Virus record (IMG/VR): IMGVR_UViG_3300045125_000023
Span: 1 to 39,916 of that record
Reading direction: 5' to 3' (one strand)
DNA length: 39,916 nucleotides
Source: a virus
Part shown: positions 2,994 to 26,004 of the stretch, piece after piece
How the letters are laid out: the number at the start of each line of letters is the position of its first letter
Numbering within the stretch: position 1 is the stretch's first letter
Made by a program: the position numbers and the translations under genes
The notes under the pieces: model-generated
Database searches by the model: none
What the model was told of the DNA's origin: nothing
The model's input: only the letters and a program-made list of their open reading frames with translations

Positions 2994-4952
2994 TTAGTGT
3001 ATACCATTCTCGAAGTGAATAGGCTCTCCTTCACCAAAAGGACTTGCCAACCTCAGCTTCGATGACCAGAGTGTTCATTAAAATTGATCTTAAAATTATC
3101 CCTAATTGTGGGATAGTTAACCATCTCATCATAGAGGATAAAGCAGAGGATTTCCTTTACTTCTTCCTCAGGACAGATAACTTCTATCGAAGTGCGTGTA
3201 CCGGTAGCGACAGGCTTTGCCTTTAATCCTGCTTGCTTGAATCTTCTTGATGCTCCAAGAAGTGAGCATAGAAAGGATGATCAGAGGCAGCACTTTGAAT
3301 TGTAAAGTTTAGTCCCTGTCTCAGAGCGCGGTTAACGACAGTACGGTCATCACTATGAACATCAGGAAGTTGGGTTACGCTTTCTACCAAATATAGTGTA
3401 GGCATAGCCATTCTTCTTAATAAACTTGTTAACGAAATCCATATACTCAAAGATTGCTGGGTAAACATTCTTGTAGTCCTCGATAATCTTTTCTGCACGG
3501 GACATAGGGATACCCATAGTCTCGCTAAGATTGAAAGCACCACACCACCATATACGATCAAGAAGGATACGGTCTTTGCTATCTGGCGCTCTTCCTTGGT
3601 GATTTCCTTCTTGTTGAATAGGAGCTTGGCAGTATATGTATGCCAAGTCAGCACCCTCGTTGAATGCTTTTTGCATATTAGACTCCTTGGAGATATGAGC
3701 AAGCACTCTAAGTTCCATAGCACCATAGTCAGCAGCTATGAAAGACCAACCCTTAGGTGCAGTAAACAAACTACGAATGTTATTCTCAGCTCTCTCCTCC
3801 CTTCTCCTCTTAGGGAGAGTGTGGAAAGAGGCTACCCATAGCCTCGTCTGCATTATAAGCAGCGCAGGATAGGCGACCCGTAGCTGTTCCATCAAATCCT
3901 AAAATCTGCATACACCTTGTTATGCTGATTGTAGCTGATGGCATTCTTAGTGCTCCTCGATGTAGGTCTTAGACAGCTTTTCAGAACTTACGAAGATCCA
4001 GTAATCCTTTGAGGAACTTCTTGGCTTCTGAGCAAATCCTCTGTGCTTTTCTCAGCAATAACAGACTTGCTGATGCGCTTACCTCCTCGTCTCTATATTG
4101 CCACTTACCCACGCTTACTAAGCTCCTCATCAATTTGTTCTAGCAAGAGGTTTTAATGTGGCTGCCGCCACAGAGAGGTTCTCTTTACCAGTTCTATCGG
4201 GAGGGTACAATCCCATGCCTTCTTCCCGTGTGTATAGAATCTCGATCAGGTCATTATTAGAGGAGAGGCGCATCCGTCTTCTTAACACCTTTGCAATAAT
4301 ACAGAGCGTCCTCCTGCTCCACGTTAAGATCACGGAGCTGCTTCCCTACAGATTGTAGCTTGTTAGGATCAACATCCAAGCCATTGTATTCCATGTCTGC
4401 AAGGGATTTCAATAGAAGGCATTACAACCTTCTCAATCAGCTTCATGGAAGTATGCTCCTCCATCTTATCCTTTGATCCAAAGGAATAGCTTGCGAGTAA
4501 AGTAAGCATCCATAGCGTTGCCTTCGCAACACTTGGAAAGCTCCATATTCTTCCAATCAACCTTTGACGGATTATCTACTGTAAGCATTAGAGAGTTCTC
4601 CAATTCATCTGCAAAGTAATACTTAGCTAGATCCATAAGACTCTTAGGCATATTCTCGTCCAAGCAGAAGTGATGCATAACTTTAGTGTCCCAGATGTTG
4701 ACTGGGTGAATACCCTTGTTCTTCAAGAACTTGATATCGAACTTAGCATTATGTAGAATCTTAGTGCTATTGGGATTCTCTAGAATGCGCTTGAGATTCT
4801 CTATCAGCTTAGGATCATTCTTGAATGGGCTATCCTTGTGATTAACGGGAATGACCCATGTTTCATCTTCAGCCGAAATAGCTATAGTCATGACATCATC
4901 GGTCAAGAAATTAAGACCAGTAGCTCTCAATATCTATTCCCAGTATAATCAT
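2994..4952 (-). CDS. polA: Family A DNA polymerase (PolA-like) with 3'-5' exonuclease
   Basis: Replicative polymerase of the Pol I family. The start reads MIILGIDIETTGL (exo I motif DIET, one indel). Exo II is LHNAKFDIKFLKNKG near 4740, and exo III lies around AMDAYFTRKLF. Polymerase motif A is FIAADYGAMELRVLAHI near 3720. Motif B is AKTVSFLIVYGG followed by AFNLSETMGI near 3540. Motif C is a restored VHDSIEVICPEEEVKE near 3190. It ends GEGEPIHFENGIH. About 650 residues, the size of Klenow-like phage enzymes without a 5' nuclease domain. The ATG overlaps the glycosylase stop (ATGA). T4 itself uses a family B enzyme, so a T4-type virion with this polymerase is notable. The most damaged part is 3900-4150. 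Confidence 0.9.
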
Positions 4953-14278: not shown

Positions 14279-14660
14279 CTACTTTCCTTGTAGTGTGCCT
14301 TTTTCTACACTCTTAGCGGAAGGTTGATCAGGAAGCTCTTCTCTTAGCTGCACCACCAGCATACTTGATATCCGCTGAAAGACCAGCTACACCTTTTTGA
14401 CCAGTTCGCTTTGAAGTATAACCAACTTTAGCTGGACCCATAGCTTTCTTAATAGCGGTATCAGCTTTTGCAGACTTGATTTTGGATCCTTGCTTGCAGG
14501 CTTTTCTTTATGCCACTGAAGCTGGGTCTTTCTTAGCTTTAACTCTAGCGTGAGAAGCCTTGATCGCTGCCATTCTATCTTCTTCCTCTTCAATTGAATA
14601 TCCTAAAGCCTCTGCAATAAGAAGACCTAGTTGATTGTATACAGTTAAATCTTGTTTCAT
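14279..14660 (-). CDS. Basic protein with prohead-protease leader, putative internal head protein
   Basis: About 126 residues. N-terminus MKQDLTVYNQLGLLIAEALG, so a T4-type prohead protease would cut after I-A-E at residue 17. Then a short acidic patch (SIEEEEDRM) and a Lys/Ala-rich body: AAIKASHARVKAKKDPAS, KSAKADTAIKKAMGPAKVGY, TSKRTGQKGVAGLSADIKYA. An in-frame TAA near 14510 is best read as local indels. The last part, after another indel, gives REELPDQPSAKSVEKG and the stop at 14279. The mature form would be strongly basic and DNA-binding by composition. Its leader matches those of 18242, 18439 and 18970. The Shine-Dalgarno sequence is AAGGAT. It sits between two neck genes. Confidence 0.7.
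14610..14660 (-). other. Leader peptide YNQLGLLIAE/A
   Basis: Residues 1-17 of the 14660 gene. Pattern Y-x-x-L-G-x-L-I-x-E then A, matching the [LI]-x-E/A site of gp21-type proteases and the capsid-targeting leaders of T4 internal proteins. Confidence 0.6.
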
Positions 14661-14669
14661 AATAATCCT

Positions 14670-15546
14670 TTAGAACAATGTGAACACTGGTGGTTCTTCG
14701 ATTTCAAGTAGAAGCTCTTCTTGAGCTTTCTTTCTCCTGTTGGCTTGCTTGTAATAAAGCACTACCATTTAAACTAGCACCACCACCAGGAGATGGAAGT
14801 GAACTATACTTTCCTCCTAACCTCGCCAAGAATCCCCTTAGCAACAGCAAGAGCGTATCTTTGTATCCAGTTCTTGTAATAAGGATGCATGGTTCCTGAA
14901 TCTAAACCACGATAAACTAATATTACAGTTTCTCCATTTAATGCTGGAACTGGGTAAAGTTGTAATACGTTTCCATTGATGATATCCCAAGTACCTTCTT
15001 GGCTTAGAATCTTTCTAATCATCTCTAAGTGCATCTGAGTTAGATAGAAATCTGATACAGCTAAGTCTCTGAATAAGAAGTTGTCTTGGAAATACTTAAT
15101 GAAGAAATCGAACTCCAAAGTACCAGCCATATTTTGTAGGCTAAGAAGTGATTTCTTATAAGTGCAATAAGTAAGACCGTTTGCTATGTGTGTTGGGAGC
15201 GTATACATATTAACTCCCGCATAGGTTTCAAACGCTGCCATCTGAGTTGTCCAGAATGGCGCATGGTAATCAAGATTAGTTATAGCTTCATCAATAGCAG
15301 TCTTAATTTGAAAGTCTGTAAGCTCTACACGGACTACAGGGTGTCCTAATCTTGCAAGAATAAAATCTCTAATACTTTTTCAAACTGATTTAATTCAACA
15401 CCCTCATCAAATGTTCCATTATTTAACTTAGAACTATCAATAGCAGTAGAGTAGATATCAGTATCACCTAAGTTCCTACCAGCGTAAGTGCCAAAGGTAT
15501 CACCATATCCTAACAATAAGGGATCTACTCTAACTGCTAAGGTCAT
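14670..15546 (-). CDS. Neck/connector structural protein
   Basis: About 290 residues. It starts MTLAVRVDPLLLGYGDTFGT, then after an indel ILARLGHPVVRVELTDFQIK, TAIDEAITNLDYHAPFWTTQ, MAAFETYAGVNMYTLPTHIA, VLQLYPVPALNGETVILVYR, WIQRYALAVAKGILGEVR, KYSSLPSPGGGASLNGSALL and an acidic C-terminus EEPPVFTLF. The segment LGxPxVxVEL....I..A...A...Y followed by W...YALAxAKxxLGxxRxKYxxxPxPGG.xxLNG is typical of a head-tail connector protein found near gp13/gp14 in marine T4-like phages. I lean to a gp13-type role. The SD is AAAGGA. Frameshifts near 15365 and 14815. Confidence 0.65.
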
Positions 15547-15758
15547 AATTATCCTTTATTTTACGTTTCTTTGGAGGTTCTTCTACTTCCAAAACATCCT
15601 CTACTAAAGGTTCTTGCAATTCTTCAACTACAAGTTCTAAGTGTTTTGAATCTATTAACTCCTTAGATTCAAATAGTTCTGATGGTCTTAATTTCAACTA
15701 TATGTTCATCAACACATAGTAACATATTCCATCTACATCTGCTTCTATATTTATACAT
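15530..15758 (-). CDS. Small acidic protein after the capsid gene, unknown
   Basis: About 65-76 residues with one frameshift near 15690. The clear part is RPSELFESKELIDSKHLE, LVVEELQEPLVEDVLEVE and the basic end PPKKRKIKDNYDLSS, overlapping the next gene's start by 17 bp. Two starts are possible: ATG at 15758 with GAGGTAGT in front (MYKYRSRCRWN), or ATG at 15725 (MLLCVDEHIVEIK). The second puts the TATAAATA box at 15748-15755 upstream, where a late promoter should be. No family recognised. Confidence 0.45.
15748..15755 (-). promoter_or_regulatory. Candidate T4-type late promoter TATAAATA
   Basis: An exact TATAAATA on the minus strand. It lies 30 bp after the hairpin that follows the capsid gene and 22 nt before the ATG at 15725. 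T4-type late promoters consist of this box alone and need gp55, a homologue of which is encoded at 5636. It would restart transcription for the neck-tail genes. Overlap with the alternative ATG at 15758 weakens the case. Confidence 0.45.
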
Positions 15759-15784
15759 ACTACCTCAATTATATAGGAACCAGA

Positions 15785-15818
15785 GAGGACCAGAGGATCA
15801 AAAATTCCTCTGGTCCTC
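15785..15818 (-). terminator. 13-bp perfect hairpin after the major capsid gene
   Basis: GAGGACCAGAGGA pairs perfectly with TCCTCTGGTCCTC around an 8-nt loop, 23 bp after the capsid stop on the transcribed (minus) strand. No U-tract follows (the next bases are TCTGGTTCC), so it may be a weak terminator, a processing site or a 3'-end stabiliser of the capsid mRNA. Confidence 0.6.
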
Positions 15819-15840
15819 AAATTGTCAAATATTAGCTAGA

Positions 15841-17505
15841 TTAATAACCTACAGTAGTTCCGAAGAGTGTAGTATTTCTAGCGAATGGTGTGAAGAGATA
15901 GTTGGCAGTAGGACCAATGATTCTGATCCACACGGTAGAATCTGTTAAGAGGCTGAATTTGAACCTTACCATAACGGGTCAAGATACCCTTTCTTGGTTG
16001 GAAGGTATCAGGATCAGTGATGGTAGGTAGTTGCTGAGTGGGATGTATGGAGCATAGATAAATCCAGCGTCCATAGCATTTGAACCCTTATAACCAACTA
16101 GAATTTCATCAGTTGGGAACATGGGATCAACATATAGGTCGTAGCGACCCATGAACTTACCCTTAAATTGAATGCTATTTGCAGCAAAGTTTGTTGGACC
16201 ATCTTCGCGTGCAATACCACCCTCTAGTTTTGCAGCACTCTCTAGAAGTGATGCAACTAGGGGCGAAGTTAGAATCCAGTTACCAGGACCACGCATTGTG
16301 GTGCGGTGAATATCCTGAGAAGCTAAGTTAATAGCTGCTAGGAGGTTTGCATAAACTTCACCAACGTGACGAGGATTTAGACCTAGTGTGGATTGTGTGA
16401 GGTCTACTACGAATACGTTAGATGCAACTGCTGGACCTGATGGTTTTTTCAGTTGAACCATTTGTAAAATCATAAGTAAATTGATTTGGAACAAATGCTT
16501 CTTCAGCAGCAGCATTTGTATTATCCTGCTTTAGACCAGGGAACGATCCTAATCTAACGTAGTCGTTATCCATTAGGTTTTGGTTTATTCCCCTCCAGCA
16601 GTTACACCTGATTGACCACGAAGACCATATGCAATCATACGAAGGTCTTCGATGAGTTCACGGTCTATTTCTAGTTGGAGTTCCTTCGATAGAAGGTCTG
16701 TTAGCTCACGCTCTAGATCGAGGTTGTGATAAGCCTTGAGATCTTGCGAAGCTTCAAGGGTCCACAATGCACGCATCTTACGAGTGTTAGCAACAACAGC
16801 TTCTTGCTCGATGTGGAAGGTCATCTCTGGAATTCCAGTGCCTTCTAGACGCTCACCACCTGATAAGCTCCATCCGTAGATTGCGCCTGAAAGAGGCCAT
16901 GCAGCGATCTGACCACCGAATGTGCCCGAAGCAGCACCAGCACCTTGAATGCTGAGTCCAGAACCTGCTAATACGTTGGATAGGTCAAATCCGCTTGCAA
17001 CTAGATCACCATCAAGACCTAATCCAGCAGTACCAGCTTGTGCTCCAGCAGCGGTCAACATAGTACCTAGTGTACCAAGAGCTTGAGAAGGAGCCATTGA
17101 ACCGATTCTTTGAGCAACATTACCTCTATAGGTTAGGTTATACTTGCTATAAATTGTTTGAACGTCTGTTGGGTTAGATCCACCTCTCTTAGCACGGCTG
17201 CTGCCGATATAAAGACTTGTGAAACTGGTCCTTGCATAGGTTGAACGCCAACAATCTTGTTAGCGATTAGATCTGGGAAGACTCTACGAACTAGTGGGAA
17301 GGCGAACTTTTTGGAATACACCTAGTTGACCCGTTGTGGTCGATGCACCCGTTAAGCCTTCATCCATGCGCTCTGAGATAACAGCCTTAGCTTGGTTCTC
17401 TAGAAGTTGAGCCGTAACACGACGAGTGTACTCGTTGCCGATGCCCTCAAGGACAGGCTCCCACTTCTGGACTAACGATTCATCAGTACGATACATTATA
17501 TCCAT
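15841..17505 (-). CDS. 23: Major capsid protein, gp23-like
   Basis: HK97-fold shell protein. It starts MDIMYRTDESLVQKWEPVLE, continues GIGNEYTRRVTAQLLENQAK, then FAFPLVRRVFPDLIANKIVG, VQPMQGPVSQVF, a Gly/Ala-rich insertion near 16900-17080, YGWSLSGGERLEGTGIPEMT, MRALWTLEASQDLKAYHNLD, LLSKELQLEIDRELIEDLR, then NWILTSPLVASLLESAAKLE, FIYAPYIPLSNY and the end PFARNTTLFGTTVGY. This matches gp23 (WxPLLEG, VQPM, YAPYxPL). About 554 residues, against 521 in T4. A candidate maturation cut is after M-D-E near residue 49. The start is preceded by AAGGGA. Frameshifts near 17310, 17160, 16575, 16445, 16010 and 15910. Confidence 0.95.
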
Positions 17506-17521
17506 AAATTAAATCCCTTAT

Positions 17522-18169
17522 TTATTTTGGGGAGAAGGGCATGAACTTCATGACCTCATCAGTTAAAAAGGCATTTCTTTGTTGGTAAGCTCTTTTCTTC
17601 GTTAATAACTTTATCCGCTTTGGTTACAACGACAGCTTGTTCCGAGGACTTGAAAAGCCTCATCCCGAGCAGCGACAAGATTCTCGACCTCTTCGAGAAG
17701 CTGTGCCTTTTGACCCTTGAGTTTCTCAACATTACCCTCCGATAGGATAACTTTATCTTTGAGAACCTTAACTGTGCTTTGAAGCTTTTTCATTTTCAAC
17801 GACAAGCTTGTTAACTTGTTCAGTTAAAACATCAAACTCTTCCTGAAGTTCACCATGTTGACTGGTCATTTCAGAAAGAGCATTGTCTTCATCACCATTG
17901 TTAAGTTCTAGAGCCATTAAAGTTCTTACCGATTCAAAGAGACGAGCATTACGGAATACTTCGTTCTCTTCACTTAGCTCAGTAAGAGCTTGTTCTTTAA
18001 GCTGATCAACTTTGGTTCTTAGATAGGCACTAACTTTTGCCTCAAGTAAACCAATCTTCTCTTCGACTTGCTCATTAATTGTAGCATCTACTAATTGGAA
18101 AATAGCTTCAACAGTAGACTCGTCAAGTCCTTCAGGAAGAATATCAGCAATATTCTTTAATTTTTTCAT
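17522..18169 (-). CDS. 22: Prohead scaffold (core) protein, gp22-like
   Basis: Assembly core that fills the prohead and is degraded by the protease before packaging. It starts MKKLKNIADILPEGLDEST. The sites L-P-E/G at residue 13 and L-L-E/A (IGLLEAKVSAYL) fit prohead protease cleavage. Then a long coiled coil rich in Glu, Lys and Leu: VDQLKEQALTELSEENEVF, TSQHGELQEEFDVLTEQVNK, GNVEKLKGQKAQLLEEVENL. The end, after two indels, is AYQQRNAFLTDEVMKFMPF. About 215 residues, shorter than T4 gp22 (269). AGGAGAT precedes the ATG. It is directly upstream of the capsid gene, the conserved T4 order. Confidence 0.88.
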
Positions 18170-18241
18170 GAATAATCTCCTAGTTTAAATATATCTATTA
18201 AAGATTCTTTAAAAAATAAGTTTTTTTAAAAAATGTATGCG

Positions 18242-18436
18242 TTACTTTTTAGGTTCTTTTGGCTTAGGTGGCGATTTAGGTTCTTCTTGTTTTACTGGAT
18301 GTGGTTTTTTCATATGAGACTTAGGATTTACTGGAGCTTGTATTTTAGGACGAGCGCCAGGACGATAAAAATTAGCCTCAATTAAGTTTAATGCCTCGGC
18401 TATTAAAAGCCCTAAGTGTTTATAAGTATTGTTCAT
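18242..18436 (-). CDS. Pro/Lys-rich small protein with prohead-protease leader
   Basis: 64 residues, intact. N-terminus MNNTYKHLGLLIAEALNLIE: a cut after I-A-E at residue 14 would leave a ~50-residue mature protein starting ALNLIEANFYRPGARPKI and then rich in Pro and Lys (KPHPVKQEEPKSPPKPKEPK). This composition suggests a disordered, positively charged polypeptide. It lies 2 bp after the 18439 gene stop and 72 bp before the scaffold gene. The leader is almost identical to that of the distant 14660 gene. No homologue known to me. Confidence 0.75.
   Translation of the reverse strand: MNNTYKHLGLLIAEALNLIEANFYRPGARPKIQAPVNPKSHMKKPHPVKQEEPKSPPKPKEPKK
18395..18436 (-). other. Leader peptide YKHLGLLIAE/A
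   Basis: Residues 1-14 of the 18436 gene, ending in the [LI]-x-E/A cleavage pattern. It shares LGLLIAEAL with the leader at 14610-14660. Confidence 0.6.
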
Positions 18437-18438
18437 AA

Positions 18439-18696
18439 TTAACCTTTTTCGCCTTCTCTTTTCTTAGCTGCTTTTTCCCATTGATCAGCACGCTTGGTAG
18501 GAGTTTTAACTACCTTAGCACTTGTTGTTAGTACCTTTTCTTCGCCTTCTTTTTCAGTTGGACTTCGGAATACCGATGCCTTACCTCCTCCTTTTTTTGG
18601 AGTTGACACCATACCAAATTTACCTTTACCTATTTGAGTAAATACTGCTTCTGCAAGCAAAGAACCAATTAATTTATAAGCATTAAATAATGACAT
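18439..18696 (-). CDS. Basic small protein with prohead-protease leader
   Basis: 85 residues, intact. N-terminus MSLFNAYKLIGSLLAEAVFT, predicted cut after L-A-E at residue 16. The mature part is Lys/Gly/Ser/Thr-rich and basic: IGKGKFGMVSTPKKGGGKAS, then EKVLTTSAKVVKTPTKRADQ and WEKAAKKREGEKG. It probably binds DNA by charge, like T4 internal proteins IPI-III. It starts on the base after the 18697 gene's stop and ends 2 bp before the 18436 start, so it is tightly coupled. The N-terminal leader is shared with three other genes here. Confidence 0.75.
   Translation of the reverse strand: MSLFNAYKLIGSLLAEAVFTQIGKGKFGMVSTPKKGGGKASVFRSPTEKEGEEKVLTTSAKVVKTPTKRADQWEKAAKKREGEKG
18649..18696 (-). other. 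Leader peptide YKLIGSLLAE/A
   Basis: Residues 1-16 of the 18696 gene, with the same Y-K-x-x-G-x-L-L-x-E-A pattern as its neighbours. Confidence 0.6.
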
Positions 18697-18963
18697 TTAA
18701 TTCTCCCACTCTAATAAAAACTTTTCAAACTTTAAATATTCTTCTGAACCCACTTTAGAGTAAATACCTTTTAAGAAATTTGTCATTTCTTGTTCGGTAG
18801 ATTCTGTAAGTAATTCTGGAAGATATAATCCTTGAGGTGGATTATTATATAATTCTTCGTAGATTATAGTATATGTAGCTGGTCCAACAGCTTCGTACAA
18901 GTTTTCTAAAAAGTTTTCTAGATATTTTATATCTGAATCAGTCCATACTTTAGTTTGTTTCAT
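18697..18963 (-). CDS. Small acidic protein made of two similar helical repeats
   Basis: 88 residues, intact: MKQTKVWTDSDIKYLENFLE at the start, LLTESTEQEMTNFLKGIYSK in the middle, LKFEKFLLEWEN at the end. The two halves align as FLENLYEAVGPATY and FLKGIYSKVGSEEY, each followed by an amphipathic stretch ending in leucines, so it looks like a tandem duplication of a ~35-residue helical unit. It is strongly acidic and could pair with its basic neighbours. N-L-Y-E/A at residues 21-25 is a possible protease site but lacks the shared leader. The SD is GAGGTAAG. Confidence 0.7.
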   Translation of the reverse strand: MKQTKVWTDSDIKYLENFLENLYEAVGPATYTIIYEELYNNPPQGLYLPELLTESTEQEMTNFLKGIYSKVGSEEYLKFEKFLLEWEN

Positions 18964-18969
18964 TATTTC

Positions 18970-20983
18970 TTACCTCCTCATTTTATTAAAGAAGCCTTTA
19001 ACTCTTGATCCAGCACTTCTTAGTTGTTCTGAAGCAGTTCTTCCAGATCCAGGTTGTTGTGATCCTTGTGCTGCGGCAGACCCAGCAGCCATCGCTGCTC
19101 CTGCGGCACCACCAGCAGTATCTACTGCGGTGTCTTGAAGTACCCCTCATTTGTTTTTATTCGATCACGCATACCACCAAAATCTACATCATCCTGCCCC
19201 CGAGCTTGTAATTTTCTTATTTGAAGTGCTTGTCGTTGAGCATTAAGTTCTGTTGCTGGACTATCAAACGTAGTTTTTCCACCAGAGGTTGTTACCTTGC
19301 CAGTCATAGGTGCAGAGTCTTGATCAACATAGGGACTACGAGATACTTGTCCATATGTTTCGCTATTTGGATCATTATCTACATAACCCCCTTGTCTTCT
19401 ATCATATACTTGTTTAGTAGATATTTTTTGACCCAAACCTTGTTGTGCTGAGTCAGATGCTAATTTATTTTCTACGTCAGTCTCTCCAGAAGCTCGTTTA
19501 CCAACTCCTCTTACTCTATCTTCAGTTCCTCTATTATACTGGTCATCTGATGCTTGACGTTCTTTAAATTTATCATGCATACCCTTGAATGCCATAGCAC
19601 CCATACCAACATCTAATGCACCCTTAGCAGCCTGTCCTATATTAGCTTTAGTAGCACCTAATAGTCCTTTAGTCTTTCTATCCATATTCCACTGTCTTGC
19701 TGCTCCAACTAAAGTTTTAGTACCTTGAGCCATTCTTCCACCAGCAGCTTGACCAGTGAAAGCTCCACCTAGACCTCCACCCATTACTCCACCAGCAACA
19801 CCTCCAGCTAATCTAGCAGCAGCAGTTCCTGGATTATTTCTAACATAATCCATAGCTCTTCCACCCATTTTATCTGCTAGTTTTAGAGCATCATTTTGTA
19901 TAAAGTTTTTTGGCCTTACCAGCGTAAGACTTCAAAGCTCCTAAAGTTCCGCCCTGCTTTTCCCGTTCTTGCTTGAAGTTTTGAACTCCAGTTTTAGCTG
20001 CATCTAACCCTCGTTTAGCAAGATCTCCTACAGAAGCTCCGCTTCTCGCGCCTACATAAGCTCCTCCTAAACCTCCCGTCGCTAAACCTACTGCACCTCC
20101 TGCTACACCTCCCAAGGCTTGCATTGGATTTTTCTTAGCCCAATCTAAACCTTTCTGTCCATATTCTTCAGCTTTAGATCCAAGTTTAGAAGTTAATCCT
20201 CTTGCTTGATCAAAGAATGAAGGCTTCTTTGAAGCTTCTGGAGTAGCAGCTTCAGGCTTTGTTGGGGTTGCTTGATTTTTGTCTGCTTACTTCGGGCAAC
20301 TCAGAAGTTTGCCCACTTATTTTCCCTGCTGGTTGTTGTGGTTGTTGTTGTGCGGCGGCTTTTTCTCTTGCTACTCTCGCTCTTGTGCTTTCAGGTCGCT
20401 TAGGTCTACCAGTTGGACCTACTCTAGGGTTCTGTGCTTGTGCTGTTGGCTTTGGTGGTGCTGCGGATAATGGAGATGCTTGACCTCCAGCCACGGCTAA
20501 TCTACTTTGAAGGGCTGATTCTGAGAACCCGTAGATGATTCTGGTCCTCTAGCTGCTGTCACCTGTTGATCAGATTTAGACCCTCCTCGCATGGCTTGAA
20601 TGCCTTTTCGAGCAAGACCAAATGCTCCTGTTACCCCTTTTCCAACAGCTTTGGCTCCTGCCTTAGCATAATCCATCTTAGTAACGGGCTGTCCAGCCTC
20701 TGCTCTAGCCCTAATTCTAGAAGCAGCAACATCTCCTAAAGCTGCACCCTTAGCTCTAGCTATTTCCATATTTCTAGCGTGTCTTTGTGCTCTCCAGTTA
20801 GACCACATACCACCTTGATCAGGTGCAGGACCAACACCTCGTTGAGCAGCCATTCTATCTTGTCTTTCTTTTCGCTAATTCATCAGCAAAAGCTTCATTA
20901 ACTAGAATACTAGCAATATTCTTATAAGCATTTACTAAATTAGGATTTAATTCTTCTTCAGCTTCCTGAAGTTTCTTTTTCAT
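18970..20983 (-). CDS. Ala/Gly-rich protein with glycine-zipper repeats and prohead-protease leader
   Basis: About 670 residues in five frame pieces. N-terminus MKKKLQEAEEEL, then NLVNAYKNIASILVNEAFAD, with a predicted cut after V-N-E at residue 30. The body is Arg/Ala/Gln-rich (RNMEIARAKGAALGDVAASR; EKAAAQQQPQQPAGK). There are two Gly/Ala-rich blocks (20038-20130 and 19737-19838), then a polar region (QVYDRRQGGYVDNDPNSE) and a tail GSAAAQGSQQPGSGRTASEQ ending GFFNKMRR. Glycine-zipper segments can insert into membranes, so a head-packaged, ejected protein is plausible. Position between protease and scaffold supports head location. It is not portal or scaffold. Function is inferred; the architecture is seen directly. 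Confidence 0.7.
19737..19838 (-). repeat. Glycine-zipper block 2
   Basis: Encodes NNPGTAAARLAGGVAGGVMG followed by GGLGGAFTGQAAGG. It matches block 1 in the preceding Asn-Pro and in the core L-x-GGVAGG...GGLGGA[YF].G, suggesting an internal duplication. Confidence 0.65.
20038..20130 (-). repeat. Glycine-zipper block 1
   Basis: Encodes NPMQALGGVAGGAVGLATG followed by GLGGAYVGARSG, a Gly/Ala-rich segment long enough to cross a membrane as a hairpin. The second copy is at 19737-19838. Confidence 0.65.
20894..20983 (-). other. Leader peptide YKNIASILVNE/A
   Basis: Residues 1-30 of the 20983 gene. The last eleven residues follow the shared Y-K-x-I-A-x-I-L-x-E-A pattern. The extra N-terminal stretch is Glu/Lys-rich. 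Confidence 0.55.
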
Positions 20984-20993
20984 CTTTTTTGGC

Positions 20994-21627
20994 TTAGAAT
21001 AGCAAGACTTTTCTTCTAAGAGTGGTTCGTAAGCCTTCACGGAGCTTAGAGCGAAGCATTACAACAAAATTGCTTTCCTTCTGTAACTTAGATTGAGATT
21101 CTCTTGCAAAGCGTGATTGAGTTGATTCAGCTAATGTTGGGAATGCACCTCTTGTAGATGGATCAGCTACGAGGTCGAATGTAACTAGTCTGAAATCTTC
21201 ATTAACGATCTTATTACCTTGGGCATCTTCAGAGAGTGTACCCATACCACGGGAAGAAATACCAATACGAACGCCACCATCTATTAATGCCTTTGCAGTT
21301 AAACCAGCAGGAGTCTTAAGAATCTCTGCTTCTCCGATGAGTTCATTACCCTTTATTTCAAGCTTCGTAATTAAGTGTGAAGCATTGGAAAGTTTTACGG
21401 TATCATTCGATGGGTGATCTAACTCACCGCGATAGTCTACGCTCTTGAATTAAAGGTTGAACTTTCTTTAGCTGACCTTCTAGAACAGTTGTAGGATAAA
21501 TACGTCCGTTATTGTTCTTCTCGTTGCAACGCCCGAAAACACCACGAATTCTCATGGTATCCCCTGCCTTACCTTCAGTAAGAACCTGTAAATTTTCTAC
21601 TATAAATACATCTTGTAATAACTGCAT
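20994..21627 (-). CDS. 21: Prohead maturation protease, gp21-like
   Basis: Serine protease (S77-type) that cuts scaffold, capsid and internal proteins after [LI]-x-E. It starts MQLLQDVFIVENLQVLTEGK, then RIRGVFGRCNEKNNNGRIYP (the NxNGRxYP motif), TVLEGQLKKVQPLI, an indel, then GELDHPSNDTVKLSNASHLI with the catalytic His, KALIDGGVRIGISSRGMGTL with the catalytic Ser, and DFRLVTFDLVADPSTRGAFP. About 211 residues, like T4 gp21 (212). The C-terminus is uncertain: one frame stops at 20994 and a shift would lead into YEPLLEEK. The ATG overlaps the upstream stop (TAATG). Confidence 0.92.
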
Positions 21628-22555: not shown

Positions 22556-23061
22556 TCACTCTTCTTCGACTACTTCTTCGTCTTCGTCTAGAGTTTCAGT
22601 TTCGTCTTGTAGAAGAATTTGCTTGATCGTTTGATCACTCACAGCTTCAACATCCTTCTTCACCTTCATTTAGTTGGCTTAAACGCTCAACTAGACCCAT
22701 GATTACATCGAGGTGCTTCAAGAAGACGCTCTTCGAGAGCTTCTTCTAGCTGTGAGGTGCAAAGTGGGCAAACGTGAACTTCCTCTTCGAGTTGTTCAGC
22801 AGCCTCAGCATCTTCTGTTTCTGTGTCTTCTTCTTGCTTCATCATCTTTTTGATGAGCTTCTTATCTTCAGCCTCATCAGGGTGTGCGCCCTTCTTCTTC
22901 TTCATAGCCTTCTTAAGAGCAGGAGGAAGACCTCTTCTTCTCTCTTCAATAACCTCTTCAGAGGCTGACTCGTCTAGACGAGTTTCAACACCAGCCTTGC
23001 TCCACATGGCTGATTCAATAAGTTTTTGACGAAGTTCGTCGCTAAGTCTAACGTGATCCAT
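22556..23061 (-). CDS. Prohead core-like protein, highly charged (gp67 position)
   Basis: About 168 residues. It starts MDHVRLSDELRQKLIESAMW, with L-I-E/S a possible protease site, then SKAGVETRLDESASEEVIEE, a Lys-rich block (PALKKAMKKKKGAHPDEAED), a Glu-rich block around EDTETEDAEAAEQLEEEVH, then CPLCTSQLEEALEERLLE and, after two indels, VIMGLVERLSQLNEGE, SDQTIKQILLQDETETLDED and a poly-acidic end. The alternating charge and location upstream of the protease fit T4 gp67. There is a single C-x-x-C pair, so zinc binding by one monomer is unlikely. The SD is AAAGGAAAG. A 119-bp AT-rich gap lies upstream with no clear promoter. Confidence 0.7.
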
Positions 23062-23180: not shown

Positions 23181-26004
23181 TTAAGTTGGGGGGTTAAATG
23201 ATCTTACAATAGTACGCTTTATTGGAGTAAAGGTATCGGTTGATGCTGATTCCTTTCTCTTGTATATTAAGCTTTGATTAAATGCTAACTTATTATTTGC
23301 TTTATCTATTGGTTTAATAACTTTACATCTCTAGTCTCCATTTAACATAGCAGACTTTATTTCATTAAAGTTTTCTCAGTCTGGTTAGCTTGCATATTCT
23401 CTAAATTTTAATCGACTAAAAACATCAAACTCTGTTAAAGTTTTTCCAACCCCGTTTAGAGATAAATAATAGTTATCATCTATTTCAGATATAATTTCAT
23501 TTACTAATCGTAACCCTGTTTTTGATCTATTAGGCGTAAACGATTGTGCAGAGGTCAACTGCCCATCTTTAATATAGGTTTGTTGATAAATAGAATCATC
23601 GGAAAACATTTTATATGTTCTAGCTTGTATATCCGTTTCTCCTAGAAGCATTAACACCACCAAACCCTCTAAAGTTCTTCTTACTATCTTTGTAGATTGA
23701 GGATTATTTAATCCTGGTGTTATGGATGTTAAACATTTTAGTTGCCTAAAAGTAACCCCAGATGGATCAAAAGTTGTTATTTTAGATTTAGAATTAAATA
23801 CATTAAATTCTGGTCTATTAGTTGGACATACAATTATATAAGATGGAAAGTTTCTAACAATGATAGGTAGTGTTTGATTTTCTTTTGGAGAATCTGTAGC
23901 TATATCAAACTGTGAAAGATATAAAAGAAGAAGTTTGCTCTATGTAATCTAGCATTACATCTTCATCGTCTAAAAAGAATACCTTATGATTAGCTTTATA
24001 TTTTATAAAATCATTAATAACATTCAAATCAGATTCACTATCTGATTTAACTAACTCGTATTTGGCTTTAGTATTCTTTAATAATAAAGAATTATTTGAA
24101 GAGTTAGTTGCTAGTGTACCCATCACACAACTTAAAAATAAAAGTTTTTTCTTGGAGAACTTAAAGAATAATTGTACTCTATGTTTGCAGTGGACATAGA
24201 GCTTACTTCCAAAGTTCTTGAAGGATCCTCTCCCAATAAAGACACAACTCTTTGTCTAGTTTTTTCTGGAATCATAAAGGCATGATTCTTCTGAGAGTGT
24301 GTTAGTAACTGCTCATCCTTATTCCCAGATCTTATGGGTACAAAATCTCCATCTCTGATAGGCAAAGGTTCATTTAATATAAATGTATTATCATCGTAAA
24401 TAAATAATTTTTCTTCATCCTCTTCTATACAAATTGGAATAAATCTGTCAATATCTGATGATAGAATCTTTAAGTTTTCAACTATTTTTTTAGTTCCATC
24501 ATCATCATACATACTAGGATCTATACAGAACATATCATTTTCTATGATTGATAATGCAACTAATTCATTTACAGTTTGATTAGAACTTCTATTTATATTA
24601 AGACTTGTCCTCTGTTCACTAGCAACTTGTAAATTTTTAAGAAATTCTAATGTTACATTTATATGTGTTCCATCAAATATTCTAGTTCCTATTAGTGAAT
24701 ATATTTGTTTTTGCGTTAATGAAGTTCCATCGTGATTCTTTATCTTAGAAAGAATGTTAGTAATTTCAGGTCTTAAACTATCGTATATTAATGTTGGAGA
24801 AATATAAGATGATTTATTACTATCCCAATCATCCGAACTTGCATAATTATTTAAAACATATAATAAATTAGAATCAATAAAGTCTTTGAACAATACAGTG
24901 TTTGCATTATTTGCTACTAATTTTCCTTGCTCTGGAGTTGTATTAACTGTAATTAATGCGTTTTCTAATCCAGTGAGTTTATTATTTAAAATGTAATTAA
25001 TAATAATTGGATCATTTAAATCTATTGATCCTTCAGATGCTATATTTGCAACATAGTCTTCATAAGTAGGTAGTCCTTGTGAGATAACACCTGTTCCTGT
25101 ATCATCCACTGGAGGTGCTGTAGTATCAATAACTCCTACACTCTAAATCAGATTCTGTTGGTTTATTTATTTCAAAATTAATTAAACCACCTCCAGTCTG
25201 ATCTAATACACCTGAATCTTCAAAGATTGTTAAATCTTCTACGGGCTTATCCATTCCAATCCATAATCTATAACTCCTGTACCTGTGTCTTCGATGATAT
25301 CTGGAGGTTGGGGAGTTGTTACTGGTTTAAAGTATCTTATAAATACTGTTAAGATATCACAAGCTCCACCACATTCACCCGTAGCAGGATCTTTACAGTC
25401 TTTATCTGGATTACCATATTGACGTTTATTTACTATAGTATTGCCACTATTCGTAAATGATTTTAAATAATTATCTATAGACTGTGTTGCTGTGTTTTGA
25501 TCTACTTCTGTAACTGGAACCTTTTCACAAGTTTGTATAAAGAATATGGTCTTTCCAAATGATCCATCTGAGAAGCTTACTTCAGGTCGTTCTTGAATTT
25601 CTGTAACTCTACAAATACAAACTGTAGGAGGATTAGGGACACCTCCACCAGGAGTTGGACCACCACCAGAACCAGTTCCAGGAGTTGTAGGACCACCTCC
25701 ACCAGAACCAGGAGTTCCTCCACCAGGAAGTTCCTCCACCAGGAGTTGGACCTCCAGTACCAGGAGTTCCTGGAACATTAGGACCACCAGTCCCAGGAGT
25801 TCCACCACCTCCAGTACCTCCACCTCCTCCTGGAGGGATTCCATCACCTGGAGTTATTATCGGAGGTTCATCGGGTGGGGATCCCGTAGAATCCCCACCC
25901 CAACCAGAATCAACATTATCCCCTATACCAATAGAAGGTATATTATCTGGTCCGAATCCAGGAAGAAAACTTCCACACCCAAAGGTAGGAATTTCTTGGG
26001 CCAT
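23181..26004 (-). CDS. Fibre-like virion protein with Pro/Gly hinge and Cys-rich segment
   Basis: About 940 residues with several indels. It starts MAQEIPTFGCGSFLPGFGPD, followed by a long Pro/Gly/Thr hinge (see 25640-25860), then a Cys-bearing domain (PNPPTVCICRVTEIQERPEV; GNPDKDCKDPATGECGGACD), repeats of the type DTGTGVIDYGLEW / EDSGVLDQTGGGL / DTGTGVISQGLP, a helical-mixed domain (EDYVANIASEGSIDLNDP; DGTSLTQKQIYSLIGTRIFD) and a C-terminal domain ending IKRTIVRSFNPPT. An in-frame TAG at 23334 is probably a miscalled TGG. The start follows the previous stop by 3 bp. Likely a tail or head fibre, or a long flexible linker protein. No family named. Confidence 0.65.
25640..25860 (-). repeat. 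Low-complexity Pro/Gly/Thr coding repeat
   Basis: Imperfect repeats encoding P-G-x-G-G-x-T-P-G units (for example GGGTPGSGGGGPTTPGTG). One frameshift lies inside it near 25730, as expected for a nanopore read of repetitive DNA. The repeat number in this read may be wrong. Confidence 0.75.

Follow-up and report, generated by a model that had tools for sequence, protein, structure and literature searches.

A short helical motif recurs in otherwise dissimilar, basic proteins encoded in the head gene cluster of uncultured T4-like phages. It is probably a movable docking helix with an embedded cut site of the prohead protease, which carries basic cargo into the phage head. The motif was studied in a DNA stretch of 39,916 nucleotides (in the following the window; a 39.9-kb IMG/VR virus record, IMGVR_UViG_3300045125_000023), whose minus strand carries a module of T4-like head and tail genes, and in related IMG/VR records. 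The original prediction, made from the letters of the window, had proposed four unrelated proteins with a common N-terminal leader that ends in a gp21-type cleavage site, three of them encoded between protease and scaffold and one in the neck operon, and had likened this leader to the capsid-targeting sequence (CTS) of the T4 internal proteins (IPs).

Motif conservation and distribution

Two scans for relatives among uncultured T4-like phages in IMG/VR yielded 124 loci (L numbers), 65 of them non-redundant. Their gene order was fixed: gp67-like gene, gp68-like gene, small basic gene, protease, region A, scaffold and capsid protein, followed by a small gene, a gp13-like neck protein, region B and a second neck-region gene; the names gp67-like and gp68-like were assigned by position and charge. 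Nearly all of the about 100 motif copies in the 65 non-redundant relatives resided in the hypervariable regions A and B. Region A comprises the C-terminal extension of the protease together with small genes before the scaffold, region B is usually one hypervariable gene behind the gp13-like neck protein, with products of 75 to 643 residues. Searches of 11 contigs over the whole record found the tag outside A and B only in two neighbouring small genes of one contig (L131:863-1469, YKRLGFVIAEY and YKRIGFVLAEV), close to one end of its 76.7 kb. The recovery of these two genes outside both regions demonstrated the use of the motif as a search key, which had been suggested beforehand.

The motif reads approximately [HW]T-x-Y-x-Q-I-G-x-L-L-A-E↓A-L-G-L, with the Glu as position 0 and the arrow at the candidate cut. 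In the relatives, the strict pattern was observed 22 times in region A and 29 times in region B, for expectations of 0.02 and 0.005, respectively. The skeleton [YW]xx[hydrophobic]xxx[hydrophobic]xE occurred 103 times in the two regions (1.1 expected) and was depleted in the remaining genes of these loci (23 versus 41 expected). It was carried by 81 of the 106 A and B proteins, was present in 35 of the 45 loci for region A and in 42 of the 50 for region B, and was retained in the distant branch L117-L119, e.g., NKYAFLKSVLSEN. Shuffled sequences gave no tag match under the weight matrix, and chance similarity was rejected on the basis of shuffles, reversed sequence and the other genes. Positions -9 to +4 averaged 2.14 bits of information each, the distant flanks 0.2 bits; when 61 A and B proteins were aligned, TxYxxxGxxxAExxG were nearly the sole majority residues. 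Cultured phages gave no match in tblastn with a 26-amino-acid (aa) consensus, short queries being weak in such a search.

Most copies are not leaders. Among 96 sites with the Glu, 77 were internal, 10 lay near N-termini and 9 within ten residues of the C-terminus, and some open reading frames (ORFs) carried the tag two or three times. The motif is a movable tag, and the proposal of a strictly N-terminal leader had to be abandoned.

In the window, reading frames were broken or overlapping in many genes (protease, capsid protein, region B and others), resembling unpolished long-read sequence. Profile matches were obtained for capsid protein, protease, tail tube and DNA polymerase. Close relatives in culture are lacking for the clade: in tblastn, the best matches of the capsid protein stayed below 50 % identity and were spread over T4-like phages. 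A weight matrix trained on other phages only was applied to the six-frame translation of the window at a threshold of 8 bits. It recovered all four shared peptides on the minus strand and returned exactly these four matches (Table 1). The genes starting at 14660, 18436 and 18696 possess good copies at their N-termini. The 14660 gene runs to about 14280 in a broken frame and is 55 % identical over 49 aa to L095_12843, its positional counterpart in a relative. The site at 20983 is out of register by one residue, having Asn at the position of the Glu in the other copies and the Glu next to it; it is placed as WHKIAYTLAEAFADEL (L120) and YYRLGNLIAEAFADEL (L089). The counterpart of this stretch in L095, a contig whose best capsid-protein segment (listed as L007) is 83 % identical to that of the window, is AYKNIANILINEAFADEL; it occupies about residues 235-252 of the protease ORF, which is continuous there and 510 aa long. 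This comparison puts the site inside the protease gene, and 20983 was rejected as an N-terminal leader. Dissimilar basic proteins of the head operon do share a conserved motif with a gp21-type [LI]-x-E↓[AGS] site, as foreseen, but one of the four presumed proteins, counted among those between protease and scaffold, is the protease's own tail.

The protease extension and the exchange of modules

The protease, whose presence in the window had been claimed, adjoins the tagged proteins and belongs to peptidase family S77 (T4 gp21) by profile, fold and conserved His and Ser. In the window its sequence is distributed over three frames, for which sequencing errors are the probable cause; in relatives it was continuous. 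The piece 20994-21245 matched PHROG 207, and the piece 20853-20497 was 72 % identical to the L095 protease tail. Relatives matched PF03420 (E 1.9e-24), the core had the fold of T4 gp21 (5jbl, E 6.6e-10; no other PDB match at E <0.001), and the segments ELDHP and ISSRG with the conserved His and Ser were invariant in 22 relatives. The core is constant at about 205 residues; the tail varies from 6 to 631 residues with a median of 248. Many tails have two sites, site 1 (e.g., ADGHWHRIADAIAEGFG) soon past the core and site 2 (e.g., HTEYKQIGLHLAEAFGL) nearer the end. The core boundary holds another gp21-like site, PWIEE↓A, and comparable sites are present at the N-termini of protease and scaffold in the clade.

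The sequences flanking the tag were basic and unalignable, and modules have changed places. In L095 and L109 the protease ORF terminates in a sequence that is 82-85 % identical to the separate 18696 gene of the window, and a module of 50-63 residues in the protease tail of L088 recurred in region B of L071 and L060 with 81-90 % identity. In the 18436 gene family the first about 20 residues were nearly identical in L095, L109 and L020, and the remainder was mostly unalignable: beyond these residues only L020 was recognisably similar, and it was picked up by eye, since a scan with the 64-aa gene returned zero relatives above threshold. Ordinary homology, a duplicated ancestral gene of a small internal protein of which only the start is still recognisable, would suit the window, where the four peptides are alike and three are N-terminal. 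It is very hard to reconcile with the relatives, whose tags are N-terminal, internal or C-terminal, occur two or three times per ORF and lie inside the protease, and in which several modules move independently of the tag; we regard this explanation as highly improbable.

Protease tails and region-B proteins had net charges of +10 to +12 per 100 residues, the scaffold -13 and the gp67-like protein -20; the T4 IPs have +2 to +5 for comparison. The main rival to the cargo reading is a sacrificial core, in which protease extension and small basic genes act as accessory scaffold that is docked through the tag, cut by gp21 and expelled, like T4 gp67 and gp68 or the herpesvirus UL26 protease-scaffold fusions. 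The protease itself bears the tag, the tails are of low complexity, and [LI]xE[AGS] sites outside the tag were more frequent than in shuffles (62 versus 41 expected), all of which would fit such a core. Fusions of this kind do occur: in Pseudomonas phage QdP_Psa3 (L137:4944-7061) a gp21-family protease of 705 residues directly precedes the capsid gene, with no separate scaffold gene in between, and is apparently a protease-scaffold fusion. The head proteases of herpesvirus (UL26) and lambda (C-Nu3) likewise have a long C-terminal extension with cut sites at its start and end. In contrast to these, the clade already has a separate, well-conserved scaffold. That scaffold is acidic, as in T4, whereas the tails are strongly basic, and the extreme variation and the exchange of modules between two places suit cargo better than a fitted scaffold. 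A sacrificial core is thus unlikely, though it is the alternative to which we give most weight.

Possible docking and cutting of the tag

The helical hydrophobic moment of the tag exceeded that of shuffles of the same composition (z = 10). AlphaFold placed helices over both tail sites of the L095 protease (residues 228-259 and 429-451) at low confidence; the predicted local distance difference test of the tail was mostly <70, and the model was used for helix positions only. The scaffold N-terminus of the clade, MSNIKNIADILPEGLDES, is spaced like the tag and has an aliphatic residue at position -9; in relatives, the N-termini of the scaffold scored up to 12.7 bits on the tag matrix and were among the stronger matches outside A and B. 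When sites were scored without positions -1, 0 and +1, Glu was found at 0 in 96 of 105 sites (background 7.3 %) and Ala at -1 in 86, a statistic partly biased towards Glu by a matrix learned on Glu-centred windows. Position -2 was L or I in about 80 % of the sites and +1 was A, S or G in about 70 %. Nine copies, mostly site 1 of the protease tail, lacked the Glu and kept the helix; docking and cutting therefore look separable.

These features suggest the following course. An amphipathic helix face would be formed by Tyr(-9), Ile/Leu(-6) and Leu(-2), with Leu(+2) past the cut and a small Gly or Ala at -5. Like the scaffold N-terminus, this helix probably docks proteins on the scaffold core during prohead assembly, perhaps aided by the opposite charges of basic cargo and acidic core. 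The upstream hydrophobic positions would serve docking, and L-A-E↓A would be cut, activated gp21 cleaving behind the Glu in the middle of the helix. Because the conserved face spans the cut, cleavage would abolish docking for N-terminal, internal and C-terminal tags alike, and a single cut could release the cargo and stop docking together. The basic cargo, freely exchanged around the tag in two genomic places, would then stay in the head alongside the DNA, be present in virions and possibly reach the host. As one of these places is its own C-terminal extension, the protease may be tethered by this extension and bear cargo as a polyprotein; at the Glu-less site 1 of the tail a permanent tether might be preferred.

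The helix could instead be purely a protein-protein interaction motif, for example for oligomerisation with scaffold or protease, with the Glu as part of the binding face and no cut. Conservation indeed runs on beyond the supposed cut (+2, +3, +4), C-terminal copies gain little by cutting, and the nine Glu-less copies would be natural. We consider this improbable in view of the hydrophobic-Ala-Glu followed by Ala, Ser or Gly, which is the form of a T4 gp21 cut site (PMC9026906), of the adjacent gp21-family protease, and of the comparable sites at the protease and scaffold N-termini of the clade.

Several results weigh against a cleavable cargo tag. Of the 45 loci for region A, 10 lacked the skeleton, as did 8 of the 50 for region B, and the Glu statistic carries the bias given above. 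Tags within ten residues of the C-terminus would release no cargo and only trim the end. No effector or enzymatic domain was recognised in the cargo with Pfam and PHROGs; the matches were DUF6321 in 2 of 61 proteins, two marginal DUFs and unknown phage families. We nevertheless hold the movable docking helix with its embedded cut site to be the probable explanation. More tentative, and rather a possibility than an expectation, is a wider proposal, in which the prohead protease of a T4-like lineage would have become a vehicle for cargo. Its gene would end in an interchangeable polyprotein of basic internal proteins, every one of them attached to a docking helix that acts at any position, imitates the N-terminus of the scaffold and is inactivated by the mid-helix cut. 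Different tags for mosaic cargo of this type may have evolved in other lineages, such as cyanophages with their WRDD-type linker.

Relation to known systems and gene context

T4 gp21 cleaves according to the rule L/I-X-E, and the first ten residues of T4 IPIII suffice for packaging, residues 4 and 7 determining targeting, 8 and 10 processing (PMC9026906). The internal proteins of T-even phages are a highly diverse set with only the CTS conserved (PMC3012670). The clade tag resembles the CTS of IPI, IPII and IPIII in being short, in including a gp21-type site and in being shared by basic proteins that are otherwise unlike one another, and it has the [LI]-A-E↓A core in common with MKTYQEFIAEA of IPII and IPIII. 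The predicted likeness ends upstream of this core, where the T4 sequences have Y and F at -6 and -3, and the clade tag Y at -9, I/L at -6 and G/A at -5. Unlike the CTS, the tag is conserved beyond the cut and can be internal or C-terminal; in the window, three genes have it at the N-terminus. Also unlike the T4 ip loci, the cargo sits beside protease and neck genes and is partly fused to the protease. T4 gp21 has two candidate tail sites as well, EITES and ALAEAM, in its last 27 residues (ITES...LAEAMKKAL); its tail of about 27 residues compares with up to 631 in the clade, with a shared tag and exchangeable modules.

C-terminal autocleavage was reported for the phiKZ and SPN3US proteases (PMC5694885). 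Polyvalent proteins are multi-module proteins predicted to be packaged, some of them proteolytically released, and were likened by their authors to polyproteins (PMC5512222). Those of P1 (DarA, DdrB) and others share with the clade the presence of several modules in one polypeptide; the clade modules differ in being short and basic, and no enzymatic domains were found in them. Structural proteins of the cyanophage cluster T4-GC119 (DUF6321) are likewise mosaics of small basic modules, some of which are shared with region B of L068 and L069, but these are joined by another repeated peptide, SxWR[DE][DE][LF]. Possibly they form a comparable cargo system based on another putative tag. The peptide is often followed by x-E-G and joins only some of the modules. 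In the first 250 kb of P-SSM2, two structural-cluster proteins fit the WRDD motif, which is suggestive and too few for a claim. The T4-GC119 mosaics (L139:5671-6486 of P-SSM2; L141:691-3261 of ACG-2014f; L143; L144) also contain modules with Cys.

The principle of a packaging tag is already known from T4, as are multi-module packaged proteins and C-terminal autocleavage of proteases. In the open-licence literature we found no description of a position-independent tag, of this motif, or of a T4-type protease fused with exchangeable cargo. As a packaging signal, a tag working internally or at either end would be more versatile than the N-terminal CTS. The motif offers a sequence key for head-packaged proteins in uncultured marine T4-like phages, whose cargo genes mostly lack homologues and escape recognition by other means. 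It also points to a possible role of common orphan basic modules, DUF6321 among them.

Table 1. Head genes and motif copies in the window (arrow, candidate cut)
Feature	Position	Strand	Basis or score
Region-B gene starting at 14660, motif YNQLGLLIAE↓ALGY near the N-terminus	14598..14639	-	26.8 bits
gp13-like neck protein (head-tail adaptor Ad2), precedes region B	14804..15546	-	PHROG 211 for the L095 homologue
Major capsid protein gp23, frame broken	15900..17505	-	PHROG 138; tblastn to T4-like phages
Acidic scaffold protein (gp22-like)	17600..18169	-	net charge about -13 per 100 residues in relatives
Scaffold (gp22-like) N-terminus, LKNIADILPE↓GLDE	18119..18160	-	tag spacing, aliphatic residue replaces Tyr
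64-aa gene 18242-18436, motif YKHLGLLIAE↓ALNL at residues 5-18	18383..18424	-	28.5 bits
85-aa gene 18439-18696, motif YKLIGSLLAE↓AVFT at residues 7-20	18637..18678	-	22.7 bits
88-aa gene lacking the motif, between protease tail and 18696 gene	18697..18963	-	no family match
Prohead protease (gp21 family) with hypervariable basic, Gly/Ala-rich C-terminal extension	18966..21627	-	tail extent inferred from relatives
Protease-tail internal site 1 (20983), YKNIASILVNE↓AFADEL, one residue longer than standard	20880..20926	-	9.1 bits

Further genes of the cluster had unusual features. The small gene before the protease (L095:6965-7384 and homologues) encodes a conserved protein with +17 charges per 100 residues and an L-x-E site followed by A or G near its start; it had no Pfam or PHROG match. 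The C-terminal stretch of the gp67-like protein (window 22687-23061, minus strand; L095:5927-6451), HVCPLCTSQLEE, contains Cys and weakly matched the Rad50 zinc hook, below the Pfam cut-off; this is odd for an acidic head core protein. The gp67-like gene is preceded by an ORF of 915 residues with a Gly/Pro-rich N-terminus (window 25000-26004, minus strand; L002:3341-6088), which had no PHROG match and lies approximately at the position of the T4 portal gene. The record with the T4-like structural module also encodes a DNA polymerase (window 3223-4930, minus strand), which matched a PHROG DNA polymerase and, judged by eye alone, is family A-like.

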